From: Oceanicola sp. 502str15
Lineage (GTDB): Bacteria > Pseudomonadota > Alphaproteobacteria > Rhodobacterales > Rhodobacteraceae
Reading direction: 5' to 3'
DNA: 64,000 bases
NCBI RefSeq assembly: GCF_024105635.1
Contig: NZ_WYDQ01000001.1
Span: 3,100,501-3,164,500 of the forward strand
In this document: in pieces, positions 12,346-40,134 of the stretch
How the letters are laid out: each line of letters opens with the position of its first letter
How positions within the stretch are numbered: the first letter of the stretch is position 1
The notes under the pieces: generated by a model
What the model saw: only the letters and a program-made list of their open reading frames with translations
The model's database searches: none
What the model was told of the DNA's origin: nothing
Translations under genes and position numbers: made by a program

Positions 12346-13074
12346 TCAGATCTCGATATCCGGCAGGCTGTCGAGCGCGGCGGTCAGGGCCTCGCCCCAG
12401 CCGTTGCTGATGCGCTGGAAATCCGGGTCGCTCGCTTCGATCCGCTTCTGCATACCCTGCACCAGGCTGCCCTCCTCGTAGAACTGGAGGTCCAGCGGCA
12501 GGCCGACGGTCAGGTTGGCCTTCACGGTGGAATCGAAACTCACCATCAACAGCTTCACCGCCTCGGCAAAGGACATTTCCGGGCGGTAGGCCCGCACCAG
12601 GATCGGGCGGCCATACTTGGTTTCGCCAATCTGGAAGAACGGCGTGTCGTCGCCCGCCTCGATGAAGTTGCCTTCCGGGTAGATCAGGAACAGCCGTGGC
12701 GCGGAATCGGCAATCTGCCCGCCCAGAATGAGCGTGGCCCCGAAGGCGCTCGCCTGCTGCCCGGCCTGCTCATGCTCGGCAATCACGTCCTTCAGGACCT
12801 TCGCCACCATCCGCGCAACCTGAAACATGCTGGGCGCTTCCAACAGCGAGGGGCTGCGCTCGCCCGGCGCCTTGGTGCGCTCCTCGAGGATCGAAACCAC
12901 CGCCTGCGTCGTGGCAAGGTTGCCCGCGCTCATCAGCGTGATCACCCGGTCGCCCGGCTGCTCCCACGAGTGCATCTTCTTGAAAACACTGATGTTATCG
13001 ACACCCGCGTTGGTGCGCGTGTCCGACATGAACACGAGGCCGCGATCGAGCTTCATTCCGACGCAATAGGTCAT
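12346..13074 (-). CDS. Anbu proteasome-type peptidase
   Basis: A 242-residue Ntn hydrolase related to HslV and proteasome beta subunits. After removal of the initiator Met the N-terminal residue is Thr, the expected nucleophile; counting from it, Asp17 (MSDTRTN) and Lys32 line up with the catalytic Asp and Lys of the fold. The GNLATTQ segment is also typical. Anbu forms open-ring or lock-washer assemblies in other bacteria and its substrate is unknown. It is the last gene of an operon with ATP-grasp, alpha-E and transglutaminase genes; the gap to the transglutaminase stop is 1 bp. Confidence 0.92.
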   Translation of the reverse strand: MTYCVGMKLDRGLVFMSDTRTNAGVDNISVFKKMHSWEQPGDRVITLMSAGNLATTQAVVSILEERTKAPGERSPSLLEAPSMFQVARMVAKVLKDVIAEHEQAGQQASAFGATLILGGQIADSAPRLFLIYPEGNFIEAGDDTPFFQIGETKYGRPILVRAYRPEMSFAEAVKLLMVSFDSTVKANLTVGLPLDLQFYEEGSLVQGMQKRIEASDPDFQRISNGWGEALTAALDSLPDIEI

Positions 13075-13075
13075 T

Positions 13076-13894
13076 TTACTGTTCTTGGCTCTGGCTCATC
13101 TGTTGCGCAACCTCGATGGCAACGGAGAGAGACTCCTCCTCGCCGCCCGTGCGCGTACCAGTTACCGGTGCGGCACCGGCATAGTCCAGCCCTGTCGCAA
13201 CGCGAACATAGCGTGTGTCGGGAGACATGTCGTTGCTCACATCGAACCCGACCCAGCCCAGCGCCTCCACATGCACCTCGGCCCAGCCGTGCATGGCATC
13301 CTGGCTCACCGCGTCATCCAGCATCAGGTAACCCGACACATAGCGCGACGGATGGCCCAGATGGCGGGCGGCGGAGATGAACACATGGGTCTGGTCCGAG
13401 CACACGCCCTTGCCCGCATCCAGCACCTTCTCGGCGCTCCAGTCGGACTGCGAGGAGCCCGTCGTATAGACCACCGCCTTGCCCACCGCAGACATCAGCG
13501 TGTGCAACTGGTCCAGCCCGTCGCGGTCCGAAATGCTGCGCGCGAGTTCGCGCACCAGCGGGCCGGGCTTGGTCTGCGGGGTCTGCCGGTCGAACAGCCA
13601 CAGCGGCGTCAGGCTCTGATGCGGGCCGATCACGCCGTTGTTCTCCTCCACCTCCACCTCGCCCTCGCTGCGCAACAGCAGCTCGGTCTCGCCGGGGGAG
13701 ATGCTGACAAGCTCCACCGTGTTGCGGTGCTGGTCCTCGTATTGCAGCTCTTTCTTGCCGCCGATCACCGAGGTCTCCCAACTCAAAACCCGTTGGTTTC
13801 GATAGGATTTCGGCAGCTTGCGCATCTGCTGCAACCCGTAGCGCACAGGCTCCGAAAAGCTGTAGCGGGTTTCGTGTGCGATTTTCAGGCGCAT
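13076..13894 (-). CDS. Transglutaminase-like cysteine protease family protein (Anbu operon)
   Basis: A 272-residue cytoplasmic protein with an N-terminal bacterial-transglutaminase-like beta domain (about 1-100) and a papain-like core. The catalytic triad is visible: Cys165 in GKGVCSDQTH, His202 in AMHGWAEV and Asp218 in GFDVSND. Such proteins hydrolyse or ligate peptide or isopeptide bonds; the substrate is unknown. It is encoded between the alpha-E and Anbu genes with gaps of 9 bp and 1 bp. Two paralogous triads occur at 28833-32189 and 34587-35471. Confidence 0.9.
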   Translation of the reverse strand: MRLKIAHETRYSFSEPVRYGLQQMRKLPKSYRNQRVLSWETSVIGGKKELQYEDQHRNTVELVSISPGETELLLRSEGEVEVEENNGVIGPHQSLTPLWLFDRQTPQTKPGPLVRELARSISDRDGLDQLHTLMSAVGKAVVYTTGSSQSDWSAEKVLDAGKGVCSDQTHVFISAARHLGHPSRYVSGYLMLDDAVSQDAMHGWAEVHVEALGWVGFDVSNDMSPDTRYVRVATGLDYAGAAPVTGTRTGGEEESLSVAIEVAQQMSQSQEQ

Positions 13895-13903: not shown

Positions 13904-14845
13904 CTATTCATAAAACCGGAAGTCCACTTCAATCTGACGACTGAGGTCTCCCAAGGCAACGATGATCTCCTGGATGAACTCGTGCAGCCCGGTGTCGAAG
14001 ATCTCGTCGATGCTGTGTTCCTTCAGTCGTTTGCCAAGCTGCACGGCCAAGTCGTGGCTGGTGGCGGTGGTGCCGTAGTCATGGGCCAGGTAGCTGAGAT
14101 TGTCCTGCAACTTCTTGGCGCAGAAGTAGAGCGAGCGGGGCATCCGCCCGTCGAGGATCAGGAAGGCCGCAATCTCCCGCGGGGTCGGGTTGTGGCCATA
14201 GACCATCCGAATGCCGCTCTCGCCGCTGACCGAGCGCAGGATGGTCTCCCACTGCACGTTGTCCAGCCGCGAGCCCACGGCGGCAGCGGCGGGCAGCAGC
14301 ACGTAGTATTTGACGTCGAGAATGCGCCCGGTGTTGTCGGCCCGCTCGAGGAAAGTGCCGATCCGGGCGAAATCGTAGATGTCGTTGCGCAGCAGCGTGC
14401 CATGGGTCGTGCCCCGCACCAGCGCGGTGCGCTGGCGGACGGCGCCCAGCACATGGGGCAGGTCGCGCTCGTTGACCTTGCGCTTCAGCACCTCCTTGAG
14501 GCGCATCCAGCACATGTTCATGGCTTCCCAGACCTCATCGGTCAGGGCGGTGCGCACCTGCCGGGCATTGCTGCGGGCCGCTTCCACCGCGCTCAGCACC
14601 GAGGAGGGGTTGTCGCGGTCGCGCAGCATCCAGTCGATGACCGCTTCCTTGGTCAGCTCGTCGTGCTTCTCGAAGTAGCCGAGATCCACCGAGGCCGTCT
14701 GCAACACGCTGGCCCATTCGTCGTCGTTATCTTGGTTCCGGGTCAGCGCAATGCGCTGGCCGGTCTCCACCATCCGGGTGATGTTCTCGGCGCGTTCAAG
14801 GTAACGATACATCCAGAACAGGCCGCCTGCGGTCTTTCCCAGCAT
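13904..14845 (-). CDS. Alpha-E domain protein
   Basis: A 313-residue all-alpha protein of the alpha-E family (DUF403). It begins MLGKTAGGLFWMYRYLERAE, the usual start of the family with the aromatic and ERAENI motif, and repeats a similar ERADNTGRI segment further on. No catalytic activity is established. The family nearly always sits next to circularly permuted ATP-grasp and transglutaminase genes and probably works with them. Here the ATP-grasp stop is 3 bp upstream of this ATG. Confidence 0.9.
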   Translation of the reverse strand: MLGKTAGGLFWMYRYLERAENITRMVETGQRIALTRNQDNDDEWASVLQTASVDLGYFEKHDELTKEAVIDWMLRDRDNPSSVLSAVEAARSNARQVRTALTDEVWEAMNMCWMRLKEVLKRKVNERDLPHVLGAVRQRTALVRGTTHGTLLRNDIYDFARIGTFLERADNTGRILDVKYYVLLPAAAAVGSRLDNVQWETILRSVSGESGIRMVYGHNPTPREIAAFLILDGRMPRSLYFCAKKLQDNLSYLAHDYGTTATSHDLAVQLGKRLKEHSIDEIFDTGLHEFIQEIIVALGDLSRQIEVDFRFYE

Positions 14846-14848
14846 CGC

Positions 14849-16267
14849 CTAGTCCTCCAGCACCCAGGTGTCCTTGGTGCCTCCGCCCTGGCTGGAGTTC
14901 ACCACCAGCGATCCCTTCTTCAGAGCCACCCGCGTCAGCCCGCCAGGGGTGATGTTCACCCCCTCCGGGCTCACCAGCACGAAGGGGCGCAGGTCCACAT
15001 GGCGCGGGGCAAGGCCCGCCTTGGTCAAGATCGGCACGGTCGACAGGCTGAGCGTCGGCTGGGCAATGTAGTTGCCCGGGCGCGACTCCAGCTTCTTGCG
15101 GAACTCCGCGATCTCCTTCTTGGAGGCGGTCGGCCCGATCAGCATCCCGTAGCCGCCCGAGCCATGCACTTCCTTGACGACCAGCTCGGGAAGGTTGTCG
15201 AGCACGTACTTCAGGCTCTCGGGGTCGTTGCAGCGCCAGGTCGGCACGTTCTGCAAGATCGCCTTCTCGCCGGTGTAGAACTCCACGATCTCGGGCATGT
15301 AGCTGTAGATCGCCTTGTCGTCGGCAATCCCGGTGCCCGGCGCATTGGCAATCGCCACGTTGCCGGCCCGGTAGACATCCATGATCCCCGGCACGCCCAG
15401 CGCGCTCTCGGGGTTGAAGCTGAGAGGGTCGATGAAGGCGTCGTCGATCCGGCGATAGATCACGTCGATCGGCTTGTAGCCCAGCGTCGTGCGCATCGCC
15501 ACGCGGCCATCCACAACCCGCAGGTCGGAGCCTTCCACCAGCTCCACGCCCATCTGGTCGGCCAGAAAGGCGTGCTCGAAATAGGCGCTGTTGTAGCTCC
15601 CCGGCGTCAGCACGGCCACGGTCGGCGTCTCTCCGGCGCAGGCCGGGGCGCAGGCCGAGAGCGAGCGCAGCAGCGAGCGCGGATACTGGCTCACCGGCTG
15701 CACCTTGGTCTGCGCAAACAGCTCGGGGAACATCTTGTACATGGTCTCGCGGTTTTCGAGCATGTAGCTCACACCACTCGGCGTGCGGGCGTTGTCCTCC
15801 AGCACGTAAAAGTCGTCATCCCCGGTGCGGACCAGGTCGATGCCGACAATATGGGTATAGACCCCGCCCGGCGGCGTGACGCCGATCATCTCGGGCAGGT
15901 AGGCCTCGTTGTTCTTGATCATCTCCACCGGCAGCCGCCCGGCCCGGACGATCTCCTGGCGGTGGTAGATATCGTGCAGGAAGGCGTTGATCGCACGCAC
16001 CCGCTGCTCGATCCCCCGGGTCAGCTTCTTCCATTCGGCGCCGCTGATGATTCTCGGCACGATGTCGAAGGGAATCAGCCGTTCCTCGGCGGCCGCCTGC
16101 CCGTAGACGTTGAAGGTGATGCCAGTGAGGCGGAAGACTTCTTCCGCTTCGCGTTGCTTGGCCCGCAGGCGCGCCGGGTCTTCGCCCTCGAACCACTGAC
16201 CGAATTGGGAGTAGGGCGACCTCAGCCGCTCTTCCTTCCCCCACATCTCATCGAATGTTGTTGTCAT
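14849..16267 (-). CDS. Circularly permuted type-2 ATP-grasp protein
   Basis: A 472-residue predicted ATP-dependent carboxylate-amine ligase. Segments typical of the family are the DEMWG start, the FYVLEDNARTPSGVSYMLENR region in the middle, the VVKEVHGSGGYGMLIGP nucleotide-binding loop and the final GGGTKDTWVLED. The family is predicted to form peptide-like amide bonds; substrates are unknown. First gene of the four-gene Anbu operon, 81 bp downstream of the M20 gene on the same strand. A fused homologue is encoded at 32186-34582. Confidence 0.92.
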   Translation of the reverse strand: MTTTFDEMWGKEERLRSPYSQFGQWFEGEDPARLRAKQREAEEVFRLTGITFNVYGQAAAEERLIPFDIVPRIISGAEWKKLTRGIEQRVRAINAFLHDIYHRQEIVRAGRLPVEMIKNNEAYLPEMIGVTPPGGVYTHIVGIDLVRTGDDDFYVLEDNARTPSGVSYMLENRETMYKMFPELFAQTKVQPVSQYPRSLLRSLSACAPACAGETPTVAVLTPGSYNSAYFEHAFLADQMGVELVEGSDLRVVDGRVAMRTTLGYKPIDVIYRRIDDAFIDPLSFNPESALGVPGIMDVYRAGNVAIANAPGTGIADDKAIYSYMPEIVEFYTGEKAILQNVPTWRCNDPESLKYVLDNLPELVVKEVHGSGGYGMLIGPTASKKEIAEFRKKLESRPGNYIAQPTLSLSTVPILTKAGLAPRHVDLRPFVLVSPEGVNITPGGLTRVALKKGSLVVNSSQGGGTKDTWVLED

Positions 16268-21089: not shown

Positions 21090-21400
21090 GAAGCCGGGCC
21101 AGCGCCGTCCCGCCTTGCGCCTGCGGAAGCCGGGCGAGCGCCGTCCCGCGGGGTGGCGCTCCAACGCCCGGATGGGGGCACTTTATCGTGCGATTGTCCT
21201 CTTCCCTCCAAAGTCAGCCACAACCTCACCAAAGCGCCGCCCCGGGGGGCGGGACGGCGCTCGCCCGGCGCCTTCGGCTTGATTCCGGGCGGGTCTCGAG
21301 CCTCTGAACCCAACCGCGCCACCGTGGCACCGTCATCCTCGGGCTCGACCCGAGGACCCCTCCGCCACGAGATCCTCGGGTCAGGCCCGAGGATGACAGC
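21090..21400. repeat. Intergenic inverted-repeat elements inside the peptide transporter operon
   Basis: The 349-bp gap between the two permease genes holds no credible gene. It contains a perfect 18-bp inverted pair (CGGGCGAGCGCCGTCCCG at 21131-21148 and its complement at 21250-21267) plus a near copy of the same motif at 21094-21112, and a second pair at 21332-21356 and 21373-21397 whose 25-bp arms differ at only two positions (GTCATCCTCGGGCTCGACCC type). They look like two kinds of dispersed palindromic element of GC-rich alphaproteobacteria. Confidence 0.75.
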
Positions 21401-21421
21401 CCAACACGACGGAACCTCCCC

Positions 21422-25138: not shown

Positions 25139-25906
25139 CTACCCCGGCGTGCGCTCCGCCCATCCGGCAAAGATGCTCTCGAGCCAGACCACGATGTAAT
25201 AAAGCAGGATTCCGAGCGCCGCGAGGGCGATCAGAACCGCAAACATCAGCGGGTAATCCGAGTTGGTCTTGCCACTGTCGAACAACGCCCCAAGCCCCCG
25301 CCCATGCGGGCTGACGATCTCCATCAGGTTGGTCCCGATGAAGGCCAGGGTGACGGCCACTTTCAGCGCCCCAAAGAACTCCGGCAGCGTCTTGGGCAGC
25401 GCGATCTTCCAGAAGATCGTGCTCTGCGAGGCCCCCAAAGCCCTTAGAATATCACGATATTCCGGCTCCAGCGTCGAGAGGCCAATGCTGATCGAAACCG
25501 CGATCGGAAAGAACGAGATCATGAAGGCCATGAGCACCGTGTTGAAGTCATGCGCCCCAACGAACATCAGCGCCACAATGGGAACGACGGTCGCCTTGGG
25601 GATCGCGTTGAAGCCCACCAGCAACGGGTAAAGCGCCTCCCGCATGGTGCGCGAAAAGCCCATCACCATGCCAATCGCCACGCCCACGATGATCGCCAGG
25701 ATCAGCCCCACCAGCGTCCGCCAGAGCGTCTGCCATCCCATCACGATGAACAGCTCCCAATAGCGCGAGTAAGCGGGCACAAGGTCCGACGGCGAAGCCA
25801 TCTTGTAGTTCGGCCAACCCATTGCCCAAACAAGGAATTCCCAGAGCAGGAGGAACACGATCACCGCAGCGATCGGCACCGCCACCTTGCGCAGTTTCGG
25901 GTTCAT
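25139..25906 (-). CDS. ABC transporter permease (SsuC/ThiX-like)
   Basis: A 255-residue inner-membrane permease with about six hydrophobic segments and the EAA-loop motif ILRALGASQSTIFWKIALPKTLP. It belongs to the BPD_transp_1 group that includes nitrate/sulfonate/taurine and thiamine-precursor permeases. Its ATG overlaps the ATPase stop by 4 bp. The solute is set by the receptor encoded at 26759-27784. Confidence 0.92.
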   Translation of the reverse strand: MNPKLRKVAVPIAAVIVFLLLWEFLVWAMGWPNYKMASPSDLVPAYSRYWELFIVMGWQTLWRTLVGLILAIIVGVAIGMVMGFSRTMREALYPLLVGFNAIPKATVVPIVALMFVGAHDFNTVLMAFMISFFPIAVSISIGLSTLEPEYRDILRALGASQSTIFWKIALPKTLPEFFGALKVAVTLAFIGTNLMEIVSPHGRGLGALFDSGKTNSDYPLMFAVLIALAALGILLYYIVVWLESIFAGWAERTPG

Positions 25907-26697
25907 GCCGCGCCCTCCTCGGCCGGCGCACGGCCCTGTGCCACCTCGATCTGGTGGCGCAGGATCGCCAGCATATCCGCCGCTTCCTTGGTATAGAGCT
26001 GCTCGATGTCATGGCCTCTCGCGGGCACATCCAGCACATATTGCGTCCGCGCCGGACGCCCCGAAAGCACCACGACCTGATCGGCCAGGTAGATGCTTTC
26101 GCGCAGGTCGTGGGTGATCAGAACGCCGGTGAACGGCTCGGCCTGTTTCACCTTCTGCATGGTCTGCCACAGGTCTTCGCGGGTAAAGGCATCCAGCGCC
26201 CCGAAAGGCTCGTCCAGAATGAGCACTTCGGGCTTGTGCACAAGGGCCCGGCACAGGCTGGCCCGCTGCCGCATCCCGCCCGAAAGCTCGCTTGGCCGCT
26301 TGTCTTCAAAGCCTTCCAGCCCGACCAAGTGCAGCAGGTAACGCGCCCGCTCCTCCTGCTCCTTGCGCCCCATCTTCGTGGGCACGATCTCCAGCGGCAG
26401 CATCACGTTCTTCAGGATCGTCCGCCACTCCAGCAGCACCGGATTCTGAAACGCCATGCCCACCGTCGCACGCGGCCCCTTCACGCGCTCTCCGTGCAGC
26501 CAGACCTCGCCCTCATCGGGCTTCATCAGCCCGGCCACCAGCCGTGTCAGCGTGGACTTGCCGCAGCCCGAGGGGCCGACAACGGCCACAAAGCCGCCCT
26601 CCGGGACAGAAACATCAAGCCCGTCGAGCACCGGAAGGGGTCCGCTCGGCGTCTGGTAGGCGTGGCGCACGCCCTTGATTTCAATGAGGTTCGTCAT
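25903..26697 (-). CDS. ABC transporter ATP-binding protein (SsuB/ThiZ-like)
   Basis: A 264-residue ATPase with Walker A GPSGCGKST, signature LSGGMRQRASLCRAL, Walker B VLILDEPFGALD and the H-loop LITHDLRESIYLAD, all in normal order. The sequence is typical of nitrate/sulfonate/bicarbonate-type importers. It is the middle gene of a three-gene minus-strand operon, 61 bp after the receptor gene and overlapping the permease gene. Confidence 0.94.
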   Translation of the reverse strand: MTNLIEIKGVRHAYQTPSGPLPVLDGLDVSVPEGGFVAVVGPSGCGKSTLTRLVAGLMKPDEGEVWLHGERVKGPRATVGMAFQNPVLLEWRTILKNVMLPLEIVPTKMGRKEQEERARYLLHLVGLEGFEDKRPSELSGGMRQRASLCRALVHKPEVLILDEPFGALDAFTREDLWQTMQKVKQAEPFTGVLITHDLRESIYLADQVVVLSGRPARTQYVLDVPARGHDIEQLYTKEAADMLAILRHQIEVAQGRAPAEEGAA

Positions 26698-26739
26698 GCC
26701 GTTTGCCCCAAAAGGGGGCGACCAGTGCCGCCCCCGCAG

Positions 26740-26756
26740 GGTGGGTGGAACCCACC
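26740..26756. repeat. Second copy of the GGTGGGT-N3-ACCCACC hairpin
   Basis: Seven-bp perfect arms with a 3-nt loop, placed 2 bp after the receptor gene's stop. Same element as at 12324-12340. A further GC-rich hairpin (GGGGGC at 26714-26719, GCCCCC at 26730-26735) follows before the ATPase gene. Confidence 0.55.
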
Positions 26757-26758
26757 AA

Positions 26759-27784
26759 TCACTTCAGCGCAAACCCACCTTCGGGCAGATATTCTTCGGT
26801 GAAATAGGCCGAAACATCGGGCTCGTTGACGAACTCGTAGGTGCTTTTGATCTGCTCCACCGAGCTGGCCAGACGGTCCTCGTCGATGGTGCCAAAGCCG
26901 CTTTCCATGGCGTAGTCGGTCAGCACGTTGGCATCGATCGACATCTGCAACCGGCGCTCCTCCAGCTCCGCATCGGCGGCCGGGTTGCGCTCCATCAGGC
27001 TGGCGGTGGCCGCCGCCGGATCGGCAATCGCGTCTTTCCAGCCCGCAGCGATGGCGGCCAGAAAGGCCTTCAGCGTATCGCCATTCTCGGCGGCCCACTC
27101 GGTGTTGACGATGATCGCATTCCCGTAAAGGTCCACCCCGTAATCAGCCATTAAGATTGTCGAGATATCGTCCTCCGGAACGCCAAGGCGCACGAGGTTG
27201 AGATAGGAGCTGAAGTTGAAGCCGGTGATCGAGGCCACGTTGCCCTCGGCCAGCATCGGCTCCCGGGTCGGAAAGCCCACAGGCTCCACCGTGATCGTGC
27301 TCATGTCGAGCCCGTTCTCGGCGGCAAAGATCGGGAACTGCGCCCAGGCGCCATCGGGGGGCGGTGCACCCAGCACCTTGCCCTCTAGGTCCTTCGGCTC
27401 GCTGACGCCCAGCGACTTACGGCCGATCACGGCGAAGGGCGGCTTGTCGTAGATCATCATCACCGCGGTGACAGGGGCGCCGGGGTTCTGGTCGAGGAAC
27501 TTGATGAGCGAGTTGATGTCGGCAAAGCCCACGGGAAAGGCGCCGGTGGCCACTTTCGGGATCGCGTCGAGCGAGCCGGAGCCTGCGGTGATCTCCACGG
27601 AGAGACCCGCGCCTTCGAAGTGGCCGTTGTCGATGGCGGCGAAGTAGGGGGCCGAGGGGCCTTCAAACTTCCAGTCCAGCGCAAAGGGCACGGCCATGGC
27701 GTGGCTTTCGGCACGGGCATCGCCGGGGGTGGTCAGGGCGGCGGCCAGGATGGCGCCAGTGCCGAGAAGGGTGCGAAAGAACAC
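26759..27784 (-). CDS. ABC transporter substrate-binding protein (NMT1/THI5-like)
   Basis: A 341-residue periplasmic receptor. GTG 27784 is the best start: GGAGG lies 9 bp upstream and it gives a proper signal peptide (VFFRTLLGTGAILAAALTTP, cleavage near ARAES). The mature part opens FALDWKFEGPSAPYFAAIDNGHFEGAGL, typical of THI5/NMT1-like receptors, which bind thiamine pyrimidine precursors, riboflavin or other heterocycles. I looked upstream for a TPP riboswitch core and saw none, so the ligand is open. First gene of the operon. Confidence 0.9.
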   Translation of the reverse strand: MFFRTLLGTGAILAAALTTPGDARAESHAMAVPFALDWKFEGPSAPYFAAIDNGHFEGAGLSVEITAGSGSLDAIPKVATGAFPVGFADINSLIKFLDQNPGAPVTAVMMIYDKPPFAVIGRKSLGVSEPKDLEGKVLGAPPPDGAWAQFPIFAAENGLDMSTITVEPVGFPTREPMLAEGNVASITGFNFSSYLNLVRLGVPEDDISTILMADYGVDLYGNAIIVNTEWAAENGDTLKAFLAAIAAGWKDAIADPAAATASLMERNPAADAELEERRLQMSIDANVLTDYAMESGFGTIDEDRLASSVEQIKSTYEFVNEPDVSAYFTEEYLPEGGFALK

Positions 27785-28099
27785 GGGTGAAGTCCTCCGT
27801 TTCAGGTGTTGAGCGGCCCCGAGATAGGCACGCCGCGCGGTCAAGGTGAATTGCCGCCCGATCAGGAGTAGCACGCGGCGGGGTTTCGCTCAATAATTGA
27901 GCAGTTGCGCCCGTTGCTGCCCGGTTGTGAGGCTGCGGGTGCACGGGAAGGGTTTGGTTAAGGTTTTAGGCAAATGGCAGGGCCCGCCGCTCTGCCCGAA
28001 ACCGACCCTTAAGAGATTCCGGCTAGCCTGCGCACCCATGGCGGCGCGTCGAATGTCGCCGCTCGTCGATTGCGCAGACCGCAAAACCCCGGAGTTCCC
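27785..28099. promoter_or_regulatory. Divergent intergenic region with a 15-bp palindrome
   Basis: This 315-bp stretch separates the NMT1/THI5 receptor gene (minus) from the Cache-like gene (plus) and holds no convincing gene. At 27888-27902 it has the perfect palindrome GCTCAAT-A-ATTGAGC, AT-rich against its surroundings and about 100 bp upstream of the receptor start, a likely operator. GGAG lies before the ATG at 28100. Confidence 0.5.
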
Positions 28100-28711: not shown

Positions 28712-28832
28712 TGATGCAGAGGGGCGCAGCGCAGGGCTGAAACGCGCTGTCGCCGGATTGCCTGCTATGCATCCATCGGCAGATGCGGCATAAATTGTGT
28801 GTTCGAAACAAAGCAAGAGCACACAAACCGGC

Positions 28833-31800
28833 ATGGCCATACTCGCAAGCATCTACCATCTGACGCACTACAAGTATGACCGACCTGTCACTCTTGCCCC
28901 GCAGATCATCCGCCTGCGCCCGGCGCCGCACTCGCGCACCCGGGTGCTCTCGCACAGCCTCAAGATTTCGCCCGCCGGGCACTTCGTGAACCACCAGCAA
29001 GACCCCTACGGCAACTGGCTGTCGCGCTTCGTGTTTCCCGAGCCGGTCACCGAGCTGAAGATCGAGGTGGATCTGACGGCCGATATGACCGTCTACAATC
29101 CGTTCGACTTCTTCGTCGAAGAGAGTGCCGAGAAATGGCCCTTCGACTACCCCGAAGACCTGAGCGAAGACCTCTCCATCTACCGCCGCCCCGAGCCCGC
29201 CGGCCCAAAGCTTGCGCAGTTCATCGGCGCGTTCGACTTTGGCACCGACGGCACGGTCGACTTTCTGGTCGCGCTCAACGCCCATATTTCCAGCGTGGTC
29301 GATTACACCATCCGCATGGAGCCGGGCGTGCAGACCCCGGAAGAGACCCTCACCGTCAAATCCGGCTCCTGCCGTGACAGCTCGTGGCTGCTGGTCCAAT
29401 GCCTGCGCCACCTCGGCTTTGCCGCCCGCTTCGTCTCGGGCTACCTGATCCAGCTCAAGCCCGATGTGAAGGCGCTCGACGGTCCCTCCGGCACCGAGGT
29501 CGACTTCACCGACCTGCACGCCTGGGTCGAGGTCTATATCCCCGGCGCCGGCTGGATCGGGCTCGATCCCACCTCCGGCCTGCTGACGGGTGAAAGCCAC
29601 ATTCCGCTGGCCGCCACCCCGCACTACCGCAACGCCTCGCCAATCAGCGGTGGCTTCACCGCCGCAGGCACGCCCGAGGTCGAGTTTGCCTTCGACATGA
29701 AGGTCGATCGCGTGGCCGAGCACCCACGCATCACCAAGCCCTTCTCCGACGAGTCCTGGACCCGGCTCAACACCCTTGGCAACAAGGTCGATGAAGACCT
29801 GAAGGCCGCAGATGCCCGCCTCACCATGGGCGGCGAGCCGACCTTTGTCTCGATCGACGATTTCGAGGGCGAAGAGTGGAACACCGCCGCCGTCGGCCCC
29901 GAGAAACGCGCACTGGCCGATCAGCTGATCCGCCGCCTCCGCGACCGTTTCGCCCCCGGCGGCTTCCTGCACTACGGACAGGGCAAATGGTATCCCGGCG
30001 AGACCCTGCCGCGCTGGACCTTCTCGCTCTACTGGCGGCGCGACGAAAAGCCGATCTGGTCCGATGATGCCCTGATCGCAGGCGAAAAGCAGGACACCGG
30101 CGCCACCGCCGAGCATTCGCAGCAGTTTCTGGAGGGCATGGCGGGCCGCCTCGGGCTCGAGGCCGATTATGTCGCCCCCGCCTACGAAGACCCGGCGGAG
30201 TGGATCATCAAGGAGGGCAACCTCCCCGAGAACGTGACCCCCGAGAACTCCAAGCTGAAAGACCCCGAGGAACGCGCCCGGATCGCCAAGGTGTTCGAGC
30301 GCGGGCTGACCGAGGCGGCGGGCCACGTACTGCCGGTGCAGCGCTGGCAATCCAAGGCGTCGGGCCACAAGTGGCGCTCGGAAAAGTGGAAACTGCGGCG
30401 CGGCAAGGTCTTCCTCGTGCCGGGCGACAGCGCCGTGGGCTACCGCCTTCCGCTGGGCACCCTGCCCTACGTGCCGCCGAGCCAGTTTCCCTACACCTAC
30501 GTCACCGACCCCAGCGTGCCGCGCGGCCCGCTGCCCGATTATCACGCCGAGGCCGGGGATGACCTGCCCGAAAGCGCCGAGGAGCGGGTTCAGCCGGTGT
30601 CGGCGCCCAAGGCCACCGGCCCGACGCAGGACATCGTCGAGCAGGAGCTGACCATCGGCGGCGCCGTGCGCACGGCGATCTCGGTCGAGCCGCGCGATGG
30701 CCGGCTCTGCGTGTTCATGCCGCCGGTCGAGGATGCCGAAGATTACCTCGATCTGCTCACCGCTGCCGAAGAAACCGCCAAGGACATGGGCCTGCCGATC
30801 CATATCGAAGGCTACGCCCCACCCCATGACCCGCGCATCAACGTGATCCGCGTCGCGCCCGATCCCGGCGTGATCGAGGTCAACATCCACCCGGCTTACG
30901 ACTGGCAGGATTGCGTGGCGACGACCGAGGCGATCTACGAGGAGGCGCGCAATTGCCGCCTCGGGGCCGACAAGTTCATGATCGACGGGCGCCATACCGG
31001 CACCGGCGGCGGCAACCATGTTGTGGTCGGCGGGGCCACCCCGAACGACAGCCCCTTCCTGCGCCGCCCCGATCTGCTGAAATCGCTGATCCTGATCTGG
31101 CAGCGCCATCCCTCGCTCAGCTACCTGTTCTCCGGCCTCTTCATCGGCCCCACCTCCCAGGCGCCCCGGATCGACGAGGCCCGGCACGACACGCTCTACG
31201 AGCTGGAGATGGCGTTGGCGCAGGTGCCCGCTCCCGGCGAGGGCGAGATGCCCCCGCCATGGCTGGTAGACCGTCTGTTCCGCAACATGCTGACCGACGT
31301 GACAGGCAACACCCACCGCGCCGAGATCTGCATCGACAAGCTGTTCTCGCCCGATGGGCCAACGGGGCGACTTGGCCTGATCGAGTTCCGCGGCTTCGAG
31401 ATGCCGCCCCATCCCCGGATGAACCTCGCGCAGCAATTGCTGATCCGCGCCATCATCGCCCGGTGCTGGAAGGCGCCGGTGCAGGGCAAGCCGGTGCGTT
31501 GGGGCACGGTGCTCCACGACCGTTACATGATGCCAGAGTTCCTCTGGGCCGACTTCCTCAAGCTGCTCGAAGACCTCGCGCAGCATGGCTACGAGTTCGA
31601 CCCCACATGGTACGAAGCGCAGGCCGAGTTCCGCTTTCCGTTCTGCGGGCAGATCGAGGTGGAAGGCGTGCACCTCGAGGTGCGGCAGGCATTGGAGGCA
31701 TGGCATGTGCTCGGCGAAACCGGCGCCATCGGCGGCACGGTGCGCTATACCGACAGTTCGGTGGAGCGGCTTCAGGTCAAGCTGACGACCCAGCATCAGG

Positions 31801-32189
31801 GCCGCTACCGGGTCATGGTCAACCAGCGCCCGGTGCCGCTGTCTGCCGGCAATGTGTCGGGCACGCAGGTTGGCGCCGTGCGCTTCAAGGCCTGGCAGCC
31901 CGCCGAGGCGCTGCATCCGGTGCTGCCTGTTAACACCCCGCTCAGTTTTGACATCTATGATGACTGGACCGGCCGCCCGATCGGGGGCTGCACCTATCAC
32001 GTGGCCCATCCCGGCGGGCGCAATTACGAGACCTTCCCGGTCAATGGCAACGAGGCCGAGGCGCGTCGTCTGGCGCGGTTTGAGCCCTACGGCCATACTC
32101 CGGGGTCCTACCGCCCCGCCCCCGAGCGGCCGCACCCCGAGTTTCCCTGCACGCTCGATCTGCGGCGCGATCCGAGGCTTGACGCTTGA
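28833..32189 (+). CDS. Transglutaminase-like/DUF2126 fusion protein
   Basis: A 1118-residue protein. Residues about 1-300 are a bacterial-transglutaminase N-terminal domain plus papain-like core with triad Cys180 (GSCRDSS), His229 (DLHAWVEV) and Asp245 (GLDPTSG). The rest is the large DUF2126 domain, containing a [10 protein letters not shown] segment, [17 protein letters not shown] and a glutamine-synthetase-like or amidoligase-like pattern; this C-terminal part is predicted, not proven, to be a ligase. Start ATG 28833 gives the usual [13 protein letters not shown] opening. First of three coupled genes, its stop overlapping the next TTG start. Confidence 0.92.
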
Positions 32190-34582
32190 ATGAACCCAAT
32201 GCTCTCCGGGCCCAAAGGCAGCTTCCCCTGCTAGATGGCTATGCCCCAAGGCCCGGAACGGCTGACGAGCTGATTGACGGCAAGGGGCAGATGCGCCCTG
32301 TCTGGCACAACTTCATCTCTGCCCTCGGACGGCTCCCGAAGGACGAGATCGAGGATCTCTTTTCGCGGGGCACCAACTACCTGCGCGATGCCGGGGTGTA
32401 CTTCCGGCAGTATTCAAACGATCCCGCCCCAGAGCGCGACTGGCCGTTCAGCCATGTGCCCGTGATAATCCACGAGAAGGAGTGGTTCTCGATCTGCGAC
32501 GGCCTCGCCCAGCGCGCGGACCTGCTTGAGCATGTCATGGCCGATCTCTACGGCCCCGCCGAACTGGTGCGCGGCGGCCACCTGCCCGCCGAGCTGGTAG
32601 CGCGTAACCCGCGCTGGCTGCGCTCGATGGTCGGCATCACGCCGGCCTCCGGGCATTTCCTGCACCTTGTGGCCTTCGAGATCTCGCGCAACCCCGACGG
32701 CACGTGGTTCGTGCTGGGGGATCGGACCCAGGCGCCCTCCGGTGCCGGCTTCGCGCTCGAGAACCGGATGGCCACCTCGCGCATCTTTCAGGATCCGTTT
32801 CCCCGCGCCAACATCCACCGGCTGGCCGGGTTCTTCCGGGCCTTCCGGGCGGCACTCGACGGGCAGGCGGGGGCCGCGGGGCGCCGCGCGGCAATCCTCA
32901 CGCCCGGCCCGGGCAACGACACCTACTTCGAGCACACCTACATCGCCCGCTACCTCGGTATGGCGCTGCTCGAAGGCGAGGACATGATCGTTCATGACGG
33001 TCAGCTCAAGGTGCGCACGGTTGAAGGGCTGGAGCCCCTCGGCGCGCTCTGGCGCCGGCTCGACAGCGAGTTTGCCGACCCGCTGGAGCTGGATGAAAGC
33101 TCCTACCTCGGCACACCGGGGCTGGTGCAGGCGCTCCGGCTCGGCACGCTCTCGATGGTCAACGCGCTGGGTGCCGGGGTGCTCGAGATGCGGGCGCTGG
33201 AGGCATTCCTGCCGCGCATCTCCGAGGTGCTCAAGGGGCAGTCGCTCAAGCTGCCCAACATCGCCACGTGGTGGTGCGGCACCGAAAGCGAGCGCGAACA
33301 CGTGCGCAAGAACACCTCCGAGATGATGATCGGCCACGCACTTGCCTCCGATCTGCCCTTCGAGATGGGGGCCACCACCGCGCCGGGCGGCGAGTTTCGC
33401 GAAAGTGCCCAGCCCTCGATCGACGCCTGGATCGAGGCGGAGGGCGGCAACCTCGTGGCGCAGGAACTCGTCACCCTCTCGACGACTCCCGCATGGGAGA
33501 ACGGCCGCCTCGTGCCGCGTCCGATGACGGTGCGGGTCACCGCGGCCCGCACCCCCTCGGGCTGGACCTTCATGCCCGGCGGATATGCCCGCATCGGCGC
33601 GTCCAACGACCTGTCGGCACTGGCCATGCAGCGCGGCGGCACGGTGGCCGACGTCTGGATCATGGGCGATGCGCCGGTGGCCGCCGAGTCGATGCTGGGC
33701 GCCAGCGAGTCGCTTTCGCCTCGCAGCGGCGCGCTCCCGGCGCGCGCGGCCGAAAACCTGTTCTGGCTCGGGCGCTACGTCGAGCGGTTCGAAGGCGCGG
33801 TGCGGCTGTTGAGAGCCTACCACCTGCGCCTTGCCGAAACCGGCGACCGCAAGGATCCGCGCCTTCTCGAGCTTGCCAAGTTCATGGAGGCGCTCGCGAT
33901 CGACATCACGGCCCCCGTGCCCAAGGCGCTGAACGATCTGCTCGGCTCGGCTCGCAACTGCGCCGGCAAGGTGCGTGACCGGTTTTCGATCGACGGGTGG
34001 AACGCGCTTTCCGACCTCGCGCAAACGCTCTCTGCCATTTGCGGCTCCACCCGCGCCGGCGATGGCGCAGCCCATGAAATGGGCGTGCTCCTCCGCAAGG
34101 TCACGGGCTTTTCGGGCCTCGTGCAGGAAAACATGTATCGCTCCATCGGCTGGCGCTTTCTGGCCTTCGGGCGGGCGCTGGAGCGGGCCGACGCGCTCTC
34201 GTCCATCCTTGCCACCTTCTGTGACGCCGATCAGCCGCAGGGCAGCCTCGATATCGCGCTGGAACTGGGCGACGCGCTGATGACCCACCGCCAGCGCTAC
34301 CCGATCGAAGCCAGCCGTGGCTCGGTTGTCGACCTTCTTGCGCTCGACCCGAACAACCCGCGCGCGGTTGTCTTCCAATTGGTCGAGATGCACGAGCTTT
34401 CGAGCATGTTGCCGGGCAATGCCGCGCCCGGGCGGCCCTCTGCGCTCACCCGGGCCGTGATGCCGATCGAAACCCGGCTGAAAACGATCGACCCCGGGGC
34501 GCTGAGCACCAAGGCCATCCGCGCGCTGCGGCGCGATCTGGCCAATCTCTCCAACCTGCTTTCAACGCTCTATCTGAGGTGA
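32186..34582 (+). CDS. Circularly permuted ATP-grasp and alpha-E fusion protein
   Basis: A 798-residue fusion of the two partners that are separate genes at 13904-16267. Residues 1 to about 505 are the ATP-grasp part ([33 protein letters not shown], and the closing [11 protein letters not shown]); residues about 520-798 are alpha-E ([20 protein letters not shown] and [10 protein letters not shown]). The best start is TTG 32186, overlapping the upstream stop (TTGA), because the conserved [15 protein letters not shown] stretch precedes the first in-frame ATG. Predicted peptide-bond-forming ligase, substrate unknown. Confidence 0.9.
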
Positions 34583-34586
34583 TCTG

Positions 34587-35471
34587 TTGCGCTACGACGT
34601 GAAGCTCAAGATCGAGTATGAATATCAGGGCTCGTCGGACCACGCCCGAAACCTGCTGCACCTGCTGCCCGCCGAAATTCCCGACCGGCAGCGCATTTCG
34701 GCCAGCCTGCTGACCGTGGACCCGGTGCCTCCCGAACGGCGCGACCTGTTCGACTTCTACGGCAACCTGATGACCTTCATCGCCTTCCACGAGCCGGTAG
34801 AGCAAATTTCGCTGACGCTGGCCGCGCGGGCAGAGCGGCTGTTGCAACCGCCTGGCTTGGAAATTTCGCCGCCGCTCTCGGCCCTGCCGCGCGAGATCAC
34901 CGAAGAGCGCCGCATCGACGGCTCCGCTCCGCACCACTTCATCGGCCCCAGCCCCCGGGTTTGGCCCAACCCCGAGATGGCCAGCTTTGCCGCCGCCCTC
35001 GTCACACCCGACATGCCGGTGCTCGACGCCATGCGCGCTGTCGGGCGGGCGCTGCACGATGAAATGACCTTTGATCCGGAGGCCACCGAGGTCGACACGC
35101 CGGCCGCCGAGGCCTTTGCGGCCCGCAACGGTGTGTGCCAGGATTTTTCGCATATCATGATCGCCTGCCTGCGCTCGCTCGGCATTCCGGCCGGATATGT
35201 CTCGGGGTTTCTGCGCACCATCCCGCCCGAGGGTGAGGAGCGGCTGGAAGGCGCGGATGCCATGCATGCATGGGTGCGGGCCTGGTGCGGTGCCGAGGTG
35301 GGCTGGGTCGAGTTCGACCCGACCAACAACATTGCCGCCGGAATGGACCATATCACCGTTGCAGTGGGCCGCGATTATGGCGATGTGGCACCCGTCAAGG
35401 GCGTGATCCGAACATCGGGTGAGCAGGAGACAAGCCATAGCGTGGATGTTATCCCCCTTCCCGCTGCATGA
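34587..35471 (+). CDS. Transglutaminase-like cysteine protease family protein (second locus)
   Basis: A 294-residue cytoplasmic protein with the N-terminal beta domain (RYDVKLKIEYEYQG) and a papain-like core: Cys184 in GVCQDFSH, His227 in MHAWVRAW and Asp244 in EFDPTNN. A TTG start at 34587 is used, with GAGGTGAT just before it, 4 bp after the fusion gene's stop. Third gene of the second ATP-grasp/alpha-E/transglutaminase set. No Anbu gene is present beside it, unlike the first locus. Confidence 0.9.
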   Translation: MRYDVKLKIEYEYQGSSDHARNLLHLLPAEIPDRQRISASLLTVDPVPPERRDLFDFYGNLMTFIAFHEPVEQISLTLAARAERLLQPPGLEISPPLSALPREITEERRIDGSAPHHFIGPSPRVWPNPEMASFAAALVTPDMPVLDAMRAVGRALHDEMTFDPEATEVDTPAAEAFAARNGVCQDFSHIMIACLRSLGIPAGYVSGFLRTIPPEGEERLEGADAMHAWVRAWCGAEVGWVEFDPTNNIAAGMDHITVAVGRDYGDVAPVKGVIRTSGEQETSHSVDVIPLPAA

Positions 35472-35532: not shown

Positions 35533-37419
35533 GTGAAAACCTCCATCGCCACTGTCTCGATCTCCGGCAATCTGCGCGAGAAGCTGGAAGCCATTGCCGC
35601 AGCCGGTTTCGACGGAATCGAGATTTTCGAGCAGGACTTCATCGCTGACGAGGGCAGCCCGCGCGACGTGGGCCGGATGGTGCGCGACCACGGGCTGGAG
35701 ATCGTGCTGTTTCAGCCTTTCCGCGACTTTGAGGGGCTGCCCGAGCCGTATCGGGCCAAGGCCTTCGACCGGGCCGAGCGCAAGTTTGACGTGATGCAGG
35801 AACTGGGCACCGACCTCGTGCTGTTCTGCTCCTCCAGCCACCCCGAGGCGCTGGGCGGGATAGACCGTGCGGCCGCGGATTTCGTCGAGTTGGGGGAGCG
35901 GGCGGCGGCGCGGGGCATCCGGGTTGGCTACGAAGCCCTGGCCTGGGGCCGCCATGTAAATGACCATCGCGATGCATGGGAGATCGTCCGCCGCGCCGAC
36001 CACCCCAACATCGGCCTCATCCTCGACAGCTTTCACACCCTCGGCCGCAAGCTTTCGCCGGAGAGTATCCGCGCAATCCCGGGCGACCGGATCTTCTTTG
36101 TACAGCTCGCCGATGCGCCTGCCATCGAGATGGATCTGCTCTACTGGTCCCGCCATTTTCGCAACATGCCCGGCGAGGGCGATCTTGCCGTGACCGATTT
36201 CATGCGGGCGGTGGCAGCCACGGGCTATTCAGGCCCGATCAGCCTTGAGATCTTCAACGACCAGTTTCGCGGCGGCAACACCAAGGCCATCGCCCGTGAC
36301 GGCTACCGCTCGCTCATGGCCCTTGCCGATGAAACCCGCCGGGTCGAGCCCGAGCTGGCGATTGATCTCCCGGCATTCCCCCCGCCGATCCGCACCGAGG
36401 GCGTGGGTTTCATCGAGTTCGCAACGCGCGGTGACGAGGCCCGAGAACTGGCCAAGCTACTTTCCACCCTCGGGTTCAGCCACGCCGCGCAACACCGCAA
36501 CAAGGCGGTGTCTCTCTGGCAGCAGGGCGATGTCCGGATCGTGCTGAACGAAGAGACCGAAGGCTACGCGGCCTCCGCCTGGGCGGCGCGCGGCACCACC
36601 GTCTGCGACATCGGCCTGCAGGTCGCCTCCGCCGCCGACACCATCGCCCGCGCAACGGCGCTCGGGGCCGAAACCTTTTCGCAACCAATCGGACCTGGTG
36701 AGCTGGAGATTCCCGCAATCCGCGGCCTTTCCGGCAGCCTGCTGCACTTTCTCGATGAAGGCAGCGGGTTGGAAAAGGTCTGGGACGTGGAATTCGAAGC
36801 CCTCGAACCGCAGGGCGCAGGGGCCGGGCTGACCAAGATCGACCATCTCGCTCAGACCATGAGCTACGACAACATGTTGAGCTGGACCCTGTTTTACGGA
36901 ACGCTCTTCGACATGCACAAAAGCCCGATGGTCGACGTGATCGACCCCGACGGCCTTGTGCGGAGCCAGGCCGTCACCGCCCCCGACGGCTCGCTTCGGA
37001 TTACCCTTAACGGCGCCGATAGCCACCGCACGCTCGCCGGGCGCTTCCTGTCAGATACCTTCGGCGCTCCGCTTCAGCACATGGCGCTGGCGACGGATGA
37101 CATCTTTTCCACCGCGGAAGCCCTGAGCGCACAAGGTTTCGAATCCCTGCCGATGCCGGCCAACTACTACGCCGACCTGTCGACCCGGTTCACGCTGAAC
37201 CCCGGGATGCTCGACCGGCTGAAGGCGGCGAATATCCTCTACGACGCGGATGACTCGGGGGAGTTCTTCCAGCTCTACAGCCGGGCTTTCGCGGGCGGGC
37301 TGTTTTTCGAGATCCTGCAACGCAAGGATGGATATGCCGGCTATGGTGCCCCCAACGCGCCGTTCCGCATTGCAGCCCAAAAACGACTGACCCGGGCCAA
37401 GGGTATCCCCAGCGGTTGA
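35533..37419 (+). CDS. quiC: 3-dehydroshikimate dehydratase, two-domain QuiC type
   Basis: Converts 3-dehydroshikimate to protocatechuate. The 628-residue protein has an N-terminal TIM barrel (about 1-290) whose expected metal ligands are all present: Glu134 (GYEALAWG), Asp165 (ILDSFHTLG), Gln191 (FVQLADAP) and Glu239 (SLEIFND). The C-terminal part is a 4-hydroxyphenylpyruvate-dioxygenase-like VOC domain (KIDHLAQTM, LQHMALATDD, FFEILQR). GTG 35533 is the start; the ribosome binding site is weak. No other quinate or protocatechuate gene is nearby, and it follows the ligase-type operon after 61 bp. Confidence 0.9.
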   Translation: MKTSIATVSISGNLREKLEAIAAAGFDGIEIFEQDFIADEGSPRDVGRMVRDHGLEIVLFQPFRDFEGLPEPYRAKAFDRAERKFDVMQELGTDLVLFCSSSHPEALGGIDRAAADFVELGERAAARGIRVGYEALAWGRHVNDHRDAWEIVRRADHPNIGLILDSFHTLGRKLSPESIRAIPGDRIFFVQLADAPAIEMDLLYWSRHFRNMPGEGDLAVTDFMRAVAATGYSGPISLEIFNDQFRGGNTKAIARDGYRSLMALADETRRVEPELAIDLPAFPPPIRTEGVGFIEFATRGDEARELAKLLSTLGFSHAAQHRNKAVSLWQQGDVRIVLNEETEGYAASAWAARGTTVCDIGLQVASAADTIARATALGAETFSQPIGPGELEIPAIRGLSGSLLHFLDEGSGLEKVWDVEFEALEPQGAGAGLTKIDHLAQTMSYDNMLSWTLFYGTLFDMHKSPMVDVIDPDGLVRSQAVTAPDGSLRITLNGADSHRTLAGRFLSDTFGAPLQHMALATDDIFSTAEALSAQGFESLPMPANYYADLSTRFTLNPGMLDRLKAANILYDADDSGEFFQLYSRAFAGGLFFEILQRKDGYAGYGAPNAPFRIAAQKRLTRAKGIPSG

Positions 37420-38135: not shown

Positions 38136-38756
38136 TCAACGGATGCCTTTCAATTCATGGCGCAACCGTTCAAGGCCCAGCCGGATGCGGGACTTGATGG
38201 TGCCAAGCGGAAGGCCGGTCTGCTCGCTGATCTCCTGATGGGTCAGATCGCCCATATAGGCCTTCTCGATAATCTCGCGCTGCGCGGGCTTCAGCCGCCC
38301 CAGCGCCTCCTTCAGCGCCCCGGCTTCCTGCTCCACCGCCAGCATGGCGCTGCCATCGGGCTCCGGCGCGGGCGCGATATCTTCAGGCAGGGGGCGACCC
38401 TCGCGGCGGATCACGTCGATCTGCCTGTTGCGGGCGATCTGGTAGATCCAGGCCGAGACCGGCGCGCGGGATGGGTCGTAGAGCCCCGCCTTGTGCCAGA
38501 CCGTCAGCATCACCTCCTGCACGATCTCTTCGGCCTGCGCCGGAGAGGTTCCGCTGCGGATGATGAAGCCTTTCAGCTTGGGGGCAAAGTCGTCGAAAAG
38601 CGCAGCAAAGGCCGTCCGGTCGCGCTGGTCGCGAACGGCGATCATCCAAACGGTCTGGGCAGACGGGTTCGGAGCGGGCGAAGTCACCTCTGGCCTTTCC
38701 TTGAGCAACATCCGAACCGGGTGCCGGCCCGCCGTGGCGCTGGTGTGCGTTTCCAT
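38136..38756 (-). CDS. rpoE: ECF sigma factor of the RpoE/ChrR (ECF11) type
   Basis: A sigma-70-family ECF factor of about 206 residues, expected to direct the singlet-oxygen and peroxide response. Region 2 is clear (FDDFAPKLKGFIIRSGTSPAQ followed by VMLTVWHKAGLYD), and region 4 is at the C terminus (LTHQEISEQTGLPLGTIKSR). Two ATGs, 38762 and 38756, are close together; 38756 fits the AGGGAG 8 bp upstream. If the promoter at 38768-38796 is used, its start point would fall near 38761, so the first ATG may not be in the transcript. The open frame further upstream runs through the promoter and is not coding. Confidence 0.93.
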   Translation of the reverse strand: METHTSATAGRHPVRMLLKERPEVTSPAPNPSAQTVWMIAVRDQRDRTAFAALFDDFAPKLKGFIIRSGTSPAQAEEIVQEVMLTVWHKAGLYDPSRAPVSAWIYQIARNRQIDVIRREGRPLPEDIAPAPEPDGSAMLAVEQEAGALKEALGRLKPAQREIIEKAYMGDLTHQEISEQTGLPLGTIKSRIRLGLERLRHELKGIR

Positions 38757-38767
38757 CAACATAGCTC

Positions 38768-38796
38768 CCTTACGCAGCAGGGCGAACCCCGGATCA
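38768..38796 (-). promoter_or_regulatory. Predicted RpoE-dependent promoter of rpoE-chrR
   Basis: On the minus strand TGATCC (38796-38791), then 17 bp, then GTAAGG (38773-38768). TGATCC is the known -35 hexamer of the R. sphaeroides RpoE regulon. The -10 overlaps the Shine-Dalgarno-like AGGGAG before rpoE. Implies autoregulation. Confidence 0.75.
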
Positions 38797-38801
38797 TTTT
38801 T

Positions 38802-38830
38802 TGATCCGGGGCGTTGGCTTTCTCGTAACC
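38802..38830 (+). promoter_or_regulatory. Predicted RpoE-dependent promoter of the lipid-modification operon
   Basis: TGATCC (38802-38807), 17 bp, GTAACC (38825-38830). It mirrors the rpoE promoter: the two -35 elements face away from each other within the palindrome GGATCA-TTTTT-TGATCC. The transcript start would be near 38837, 23 bp before the ATG at 38860. Confidence 0.75.
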
Positions 38831-38859
38831 CCCTTGATCGAAACCGAAACGAGGCCCCG

Positions 38860-40134
38860 ATGTCACTCGACGCCCTTCCTTCGCGCCCGCAGCGCATCGC
38901 CATTGTCGGCGGCGGCATCTCGGGGCTGGCCTCGGCCCATCTGCTTGCGCCGCAGCACGCGGTCACCCTCTACGAGGCCGCGCCTCGACTGGGTGGACAT
39001 GCGCGCACAGTGCTCGCCGGGCGACAGGGCGATCAGCCGGTCGACACCGGCTTCATCGTGTTCAACTACGCCAATTACCCGCACCTGACCCGGCTGTTTC
39101 AGGAGCTCGACGTGCCGGTGACCCGGAGCGACATGAGCTTTGGCGCCTCCATCGACGATGGGCGCATTGAATATGCCCTGCGCAGCCTCTCCGCCCTCAC
39201 CGCGCAAAAGCGCAACCTCGCCCGGCCGGGCTTTTACCGCATGGTGCGCGACATCCTGCGCTTCAACGCACGTGCCGAGGCGCTGGCGGAAGACAGCACC
39301 ACCATCGGCGAACTGATGGACGAGATGCAGCTGGGTGCGTGGTTTCAGAACTATTACCTCGTGCCGCTCTGCGGCGCGATCTGGTCAACCCCGCCCGACC
39401 AGATCCGCGCTTTTCCGGCCCGCGCCATCCTGCAATTCTTCCGCAACCACGCGCTGCTCAGCCGCGGCGGGCAGCACCAATGGTGGACGGTGAAGGGCGG
39501 GAGCATCGAATATGTCCGCCGCCTTGAGCACTCCCTGCGCGGGCGCGGCGTGGCGCTGCGAACCAACTGCCCGGTGGATGCCATCGAGCGCGACGGCGAG
39601 AGCTGCATCGTGCGCGCGGGCGGTACTGCCGAGAGTTTCGACCATGTCATCCTTGCCTGCCACGCCGATCAGGCTCTGCGCCTTCTTGCCCGTCCTACCG
39701 CTGCGGAGGAAGCTGCCCTTTCCGCCGTGCGCTTTCAGGACAACCGCATGGTCCTGCACCGCGATACGGCACAGATGCCGCGTCGCCGCGCCTGCTGGTC
39801 AAGCTGGGTTTATACCGCCGACACCCGCAACCCCGCGCCCGCCGTGGGCGTGACCTATTGGATGAACCGTCTTCAGGACATCCCCGAGGCCGATCCGCTC
39901 TTTGTTACGCTCAACCCGGCCCGCGAGGTGCCCCAGGAGCTGACCTATGACGAAACCACCTTCCGCCATCCGATCTTCGACGCGCCCGCGCTTCAGGCGC
40001 AGGAGTGGTTGCGCGGAATGAACGGTCGGAACAACACGTGGTTTGCCGGGGCATGGACCCGCCACGGATTCCATGAAGACGGATTTGCCAGCGCGGCCCG
40101 GATTGCCCGCCAGTTGGAGCTGCAACCGGCATGA
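38860..40134 (+). CDS. FAD-dependent amine-oxidase-type oxidoreductase (COG2907)
   Basis: A 424-residue flavoprotein. The FAD-binding Rossmann motif IAIVGGGISGLASA lies at about residues 13-26, followed by the second conserved stretch YEAAPRLGGHARTV. A C-terminal FAD contact (TWFAGAWTRHGFHEDG) closes the domain. The family is always found with DUF1365 and a CFA-synthase-like methyltransferase, as here, and is thought to act on fatty acyl chains of phospholipids. GAGG precedes the chosen ATG. First gene under the predicted RpoE promoter; its stop overlaps the next ATG by 4 bp. Confidence 0.9.
   Translation: MSLDALPSRPQRIAIVGGGISGLASAHLLAPQHAVTLYEAAPRLGGHARTVLAGRQGDQPVDTGFIVFNYANYPHLTRLFQELDVPVTRSDMSFGASIDDGRIEYALRSLSALTAQKRNLARPGFYRMVRDILRFNARAEALAEDSTTIGELMDEMQLGAWFQNYYLVPLCGAIWSTPPDQIRAFPARAILQFFRNHALLSRGGQHQWWTVKGGSIEYVRRLEHSLRGRGVALRTNCPVDAIERDGESCIVRAGGTAESFDHVILACHADQALRLLARPTAAEEAALSAVRFQDNRMVLHRDTAQMPRRRACWSSWVYTADTRNPAPAVGVTYWMNRLQDIPEADPLFVTLNPAREVPQELTYDETTFRHPIFDAPALQAQEWLRGMNGRNNTWFAGAWTRHGFHEDGFASAARIARQLELQPA

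Follow-up and report, generated by a model that had tools for sequence, protein, structure and literature searches.

Two ligase-like gene sets of Oceanicola sp. 502str15 look like halves of one amide-bond-making system

We analysed a window of 64,000 nucleotides from Oceanicola sp. 502str15 (contig NZ_WYDQ01000001.1, positions 3,100,501 to 3,164,500) that carries two operons of related content. The DUF2126 operon (28833-35471) encodes a transglutaminase-DUF2126 protein (TG-DUF2126), a fused ATP-grasp/Alpha-E protein (the fusion) and a transglutaminase-like protein (TGf). The Anbu operon (16267-12346), ~12.6 kb away, encodes a stand-alone ATP-grasp, a stand-alone Alpha-E, another transglutaminase-like protein (TGa) and Anbu. 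The two gene sets look like halves of one widespread amide-bond-making system, not rival versions. We lean towards a system for both making and cutting amide bonds, with the fusion as a non-catalytic helper and Anbu as an accessory hydrolase. The sequences themselves show the gene order, the motif loss, a single split separating the fused from the stand-alone forms, purifying selection, co-occurrence and the predicted folds; the loss of activity in the fusion, its scaffold role, the amide ligation and hydrolysis, and a nitrogen role in this organism we infer.

The fused ATP-grasp and its operon

The fusion gene (32186..34582, forward strand) encodes CP_ATPgrasp_2 at protein residues 92-470 (E 4e-122) and Alpha-E at 517-796 (E 9e-52) by Pfam, corresponding to a putative pseudo-ATP-grasp at ~32459-33595, so called from motif loss and a structure model, and an Alpha-E domain at ~33734-34573. 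Its closest named relatives, from Vannielia litorea (Rhodobacterales) and Oceanicola, share 86-87% identity. The residues of a catalytic circularly permuted ATP-grasp (E-x-N pair, Lys, Gly loop and Asp/Asn) were largely lost from the fusion, and all were present in the stand-alone ATP-grasp. Among 98 fusions, 62 kept none of five core residues and 36 kept one or two, a count that leaves out the L034 fusion fragment (misclassified as a stand-alone ATP-grasp in the motif alignments), L043, which is partial, and the ATP-grasp that stands alone in L044, and skips the window copies L001/L002. Fused copies were defined as frames >650 aa, so broken copies would have been missed, and the sample was without Actinobacterial and cyanobacterial members. 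Most proteobacterial fusions had alterations in all three of metal pair, Lys and Gly loop, with the Gly-loop region freely variable. R436 was retained in 97/98, and the D-R of a fusion signature, D-R-x-Q-x-P-S-G, did not vary in any of the database fusions (119/119 and 120/120).

Fused and stand-alone forms were separated by one ancient split with support of 100/100 in both trees, which ruled out a recent fusion of neighbouring ATP-grasp and Alpha-E genes. Purifying selection, measured as the ratio of nonsynonymous to synonymous substitution rates, and the conserved signature ruled out a decaying pseudogene. Judged by sequence, the fusion is an anciently split paralogue of the stand-alone pair, whose catalytic residues seem to be gone and which seems to persist as a helper protein; the motif loss points to a loss of ligase activity. 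The original prediction had read the fusion as evidence that its two domains work as a single machine, which does not follow for an old paralogue largely stripped of its motif residues; the fused architecture suggests that the two domains associate, but not that this copy still ligates. None of the literature titles and abstract openings listed mentions that the fused ATP-grasp in this family is inactive, in a check that did not extend to Iyer et al. 2009.

The Alpha-E (PF04168) ER motif was kept in both forms (fused, n = 26: E 0.96, R 1.00; stand-alone, n = 23: both 1.00). D171, R175, D178, W200, N94 and N111 were invariant in stand-alone copies and not conserved in fused ones, of which the window copy retains D171. 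Structure models were built from alignments of 79 and 64 sequences, selected from those found. The fusion model (pLDDT, predicted local distance difference test, 86.6) places its first half in the ATP-grasp fold of glutathione synthetase type. For the Alpha-E half we found no convincing fold, only helical bundles at middling Z, and Alpha-E sequence searches of the PDB gave nothing significant. DUF2126 is predicted to adopt the glutamine synthetase fold and has many invariant polar residues across 19 sequences, possible metal and ATP ligands, with key loops modelled at low confidence.

The families and positions first proposed for both loci held up, as did the coupling of the three genes of the DUF2126 operon. 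TG-DUF2126 (28833..32189, forward strand; 1118 aa from the ATG at 28833) was assigned by Pfam, conserved columns, fold and transglutaminase residues. It lies in an open reading frame of 1130 aa (28797-32189) with Bact_transglu_N at residues 18-95, Transglut_core at 155-258 and DUF2126 (PF09899) at 294-1123, the last scoring 1313 bits (E = 0) against a curated cut-off of 27. The N-terminal transglutaminase-like part (TGn) has an intact Cys-His-Asp, and the DUF2126 part (~29676-32165) is a predicted glutamine-synthetase-like COOH-NH2 ligase. The TGA of this gene overlaps the TTG start of the fusion gene at 32186-32189, and 4 bases separate the fusion gene from TGf (34587..35471, forward strand; Bact_transglu_N and Transglut_core by Pfam; Cys-His-Asp present).

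All four genes of the Anbu operon lie on the reverse strand and were assigned by Pfam: the stand-alone circularly permuted ATP-grasp (14849..16267; match to 3n6x), the stand-alone Alpha-E (13904..14845), TGa (13076..13894; Cys-His-Asp present) and the proteasome-fold Anbu (12346..13074). Anbu matched solved structures (5loy, a designed Anbu, E 9e-87; 5nyj, E 2e-74) and has, by position, Thr1, Asp17 and Lys32, the candidate catalytic residues of Anbu (PMC6376114). The genome contains two circularly permuted ATP-grasps, both in this window with no others matched, two Alpha-E, one DUF2126 and one Anbu.

Every ligase-like protein in the window has a transglutaminase-like thiol partner, fused to it for DUF2126 and adjacent for the fusion and the stand-alone pair. 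The Cys-His-Asp of the superfamily was present in 35/35 TGn and 28/28 TGf rows, the TGf label in alignment and tree taking in two beside-Anbu proteins (L028, L030) of a different transglutaminase type; TGa rows had Cys in 5/6 and His and Asp in 6/6. In the transglutaminase tree TGn formed a single group, and TGf and TGa were not cleanly separated. The two beside-Anbu proteins (L028:11651-12439, L030:15210-16058) are without Bact_transglu_N and lie where Anbu adjoins a DUF2126 gene or operon.

Co-occurrence and linkage of the two sets

We counted the families in 195 genomes from the window's order, all listed under its family, and in 219 genomes from its phylum; Fisher tests on these counts disregard kinship. 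The order sample contained Alpha-E in 143, Anbu in 144 and DUF2126 in 45 genomes. All 45 genomes with DUF2126 also had Anbu and Alpha-E; Anbu was present in 143/143 genomes with Alpha-E, and 36/36 genomes with two Alpha-E had DUF2126. In the phylum sample (DUF2126 67, Anbu 77, Alpha-E 120) Alpha-E accompanied DUF2126 in 67/67 genomes and Anbu did so in 39/67, leaving 28/67 with none; 44/120 genomes with Alpha-E had no Anbu match, and six had two Alpha-E and no DUF2126. A stand-alone ATP-grasp was found in 28/28 of the Anbu-less DUF2126 genomes, as was a stand-alone Alpha-E frame (317-543 aa, two as partial matches), which lay ≤10 kb from DUF2126 in 20/28. Since these Anbu-less genomes all have the stand-alone pair, Anbu is optional to DUF2126 and the pair is not, among the genomes examined. 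Wherever DUF2126 occurred in them, the stand-alone ATP-grasp and Alpha-E came with it, whether Anbu was present or not.

These counts ruled out Anbu and DUF2126 as alternatives. The earlier claims that Anbu replaces DUF2126 and that its presence separates a synthesis part from a degradation part were therefore not upheld. DUF2126 and Anbu lay ≤25 kb apart in 13/45 genomes of the order sample (9/32 genera; 8/31 excluding the window's genus, the limit having been set after the window's own 16.6 kb was known) and in 16/38 others of the phylum sample. In one genome (G044) Anbu adjoins the DUF2126 operon (L030), and none was found in 12 kb around the stand-alone ATP-grasp/Alpha-E/transglutaminase set (L135).

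We inspected 80 named DUF2126 loci from genome contigs, the best 80 of 593 found, all or nearly all from Alphaproteobacteria by title. The fusion was in the flank of 72/80, followed by a transglutaminase-like gene in 71; of the other eight, contig ends cut three and ~10 kb downstream held no fusion in five. Granulicella (Acidobacteriota) has the same three genes as the DUF2126 operon, and in Pseudooceanicola (L044) both window operons stand side by side, divergently. Among 20 phylum stretches (19 centred on DUF2126), chosen by hand and not at random, 12 had the stand-alone pair together with DUF2126. Five genes of the set lie in a row on an IncFII-typed Enterobacter roggenkampii plasmid (L139:4603-13794; no Anbu in the stretch covered) and six in Burkholderia cenocepacia. 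Outside the window the stand-alone pair was often without its own transglutaminase. In the stretches covered of L049, L080, L083, L099, L121, L023, L024 and L025, TG-DUF2126 was accompanied by neither the fusion nor any other member of the set.

The region between the window loci (16349-25012) encodes an M20 peptidase, a DUF1028 protein, an oligopeptide ABC transporter, with one permease/ATPase fusion gene, and a GntR regulator; the DUF1028, transporter and regulator genes hold the same position in three genus mates. A second ABC transporter set, of NMT1/THI5 type (25139-27874), lies upstream of the DUF2126 operon and is also present in three genus mates. Directly downstream (35533-37419) is a xylose-isomerase-like TIM barrel fused to a glyoxalase domain of 4-hydroxyphenylpyruvate dioxygenase type. 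Further on (38491-42794) is a cluster of FAD amine oxidase, DUF1365, cyclopropane-synthase-like methyltransferase and short-chain dehydrogenase.

Proposed function and alternative readings

In the system that we favour, the two loci would together make and cut amide bonds, probably under nitrogen shortage. The stand-alone ATP-grasp and the glutamine-synthetase-like DUF2126 would be its two ATP-driven working ligases, with the transglutaminase-like proteins as their thiol hydrolase or transferase partners. The fusion, which putatively arose by an old duplication of the ATP-grasp/Alpha-E pair and then lost its metal- and phosphate-binding residues, may serve as a non-catalytic scaffold or specificity subunit for DUF2126 or the intact ATP-grasp, and Anbu would be an accessory hydrolase common to the whole system. 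A more specific version is speculative: one duplication would have yielded a pseudo-ATP-grasp modifier subunit that makes DUF2126 a regulated ligase/amidase, within a cycle of amide conjugation during nitrogen starvation, where the intact ATP-grasp and DUF2126 would work one after the other on a single substrate and Anbu would remove the product.

Published expression data point to nitrogen. Pseudomonas putida PP_2685 and PP_2688 were up on nitrate and the PP_2688 promoter was induced 3.7-fold by nitrogen depletion (PMC8050072), and PP2685-2687 were higher under nitrogen than carbon limitation (PMC3325844). B. cenocepacia I35_5080-5083 required NtrC and sigma54 (PMC5491218); I35_5083 is probably TG-DUF2126, to judge from its description as a 'large protein containing transglutaminase-like domain' and from how the genes are ordered in another strain. 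Marine metagenomes show Bact_transglu_N, DUF403, DUF404 and DUF407 in association with urea metabolism domains (PMC3597751). By extension the system may have a nitrogen role in Oceanicola sp. 502str15. An upstream comparison with genus mates revealed a conserved block before the TG-DUF2126 gene, with no site recognised in it.

Several observations weigh against one nitrogen-linked system with an inactive fusion. The PP_2685 promoter was unresponsive to nitrogen (PMC8050072), expression of the Anbu operon is cited as unchanged under various other conditions (PMC5666114), and our sigma54- and NtrC-like consensus scans of the window gave none above chance and none upstream of either operon. In most Alphaproteobacteria both halves lie apart: a stand-alone Alpha-E or Anbu was in the flank of 1/80 of the best DUF2126 loci (L044). 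A single Alpha-E match was found in 9/45 order-sample and 7/67 phylum-sample genomes with DUF2126. Three such genomes (G073, G080, G146) have no fusion and one PF14403 (circularly permuted ATP-grasp) match each, and clusters L026-L029 combine DUF2126, the stand-alone pair and Anbu with no fusion, so DUF2126 can do without the fusion. Acidobacterial-like fusions retain both lysines (120/120) and may still bind nucleotide. The DUF2126 model fell below pLDDT 50 at 768-784 and 821-829, in loops bearing invariant residues; Foldseek by itself matched it to glutamine synthetase at no better than E 0.008, and the DUF2126 profile found no such match in Pfam or the PDB. In Yersinia bercovieri neither a specific interaction of the operon proteins nor an Anbu peptidase activity was detected (PMC6376114).

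The retained lysines, the invariant D-R and R436 could also mean that the fused ATP-grasp is still a ligase working through the residues of D-R-x-Q-x-P-S-G, neofunctionalised and not dead. We think this improbable, because the metal pair, Lys and Gly loop are changed in most proteobacterial fusions and none of the 98 keeps more than two core residues. The published proposal, which the original prediction rightly gave as peptide synthesis or tagging, is that the ligases add a peptide tag and Anbu removes the tag or degrades the tagged protein (cited in PMC5666114, PMC6376114). Anbu in every Alpha-E genome of the order sample agrees with it, but its absence from so many DUF2126 and Alpha-E genomes of the phylum sample, and the lack of detected peptidase activity, make it unlikely, though less so than a live fused ligase. 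Least probable is the view first proposed, in which the two sets are independent versions of the same pathway and differ in function chiefly by Anbu; the domains are homologous, the family sets are similar and the sets lie apart in most of the best 80 loci, but nested occurrence, shared clusters, Anbu in either locus and a pseudo-ATP-grasp in one set only all speak against it.

Comparison with known systems

The cassette is an ordinary, common member of an already described kind, and 7302 of 8000 scored candidates were relatives of the fusion. What is new is that nearly all sampled fusions have lost ATP-grasp residues, and that DUF2126 depends on the stand-alone pair, not on Anbu. Should one ligase prove to be a pseudoenzyme and both loci parts of a single system, studies of the four-gene Anbu operon alone may miss partners in genomes where both sets occur.

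The Anbu operon has been described as ATP-grasp, Alpha-E, transglutaminase and Anbu (Valas and Bourne 2008, Iyer et al. 2009, cited in PMC5666114, PMC6376114). The window locus 16267-12346 has these four genes in this order, whereas 28833-35471 has no Anbu, an added DUF2126 and a degenerate ATP-grasp fused to Alpha-E. The rlo ATP-grasp/inactive-transglutaminase operon (PMC12239564) and hm2192 (PMC12096838) are different systems, and the available portions of PMC8407117, PMC2922099, PMC7159879 and PMC10318531 held nothing on this one. Glutathionylspermidine synthetase/amidase offers an analogy only; the fused ATP-grasp of the window is without the motif residues and the thiol enzymes are transglutaminase-like.

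The first four genes of the B. cenocepacia six-gene cluster (L140) are apparently the NtrC-dependent I35_5080-5083 (PMC5491218). This cluster is contiguous, with no Anbu found in the 21 kb covered, and its NtrC/sigma54 control was not seen in the Oceanicola window, but it encodes the same six protein kinds. Iyer et al. 2009 reportedly predicted a peptide-tagging system of circularly permuted ATP-grasp, glutamine-synthetase-like ligase, Ntn-hydrolase and Alpha-E; the same families are all present in the window as a whole.
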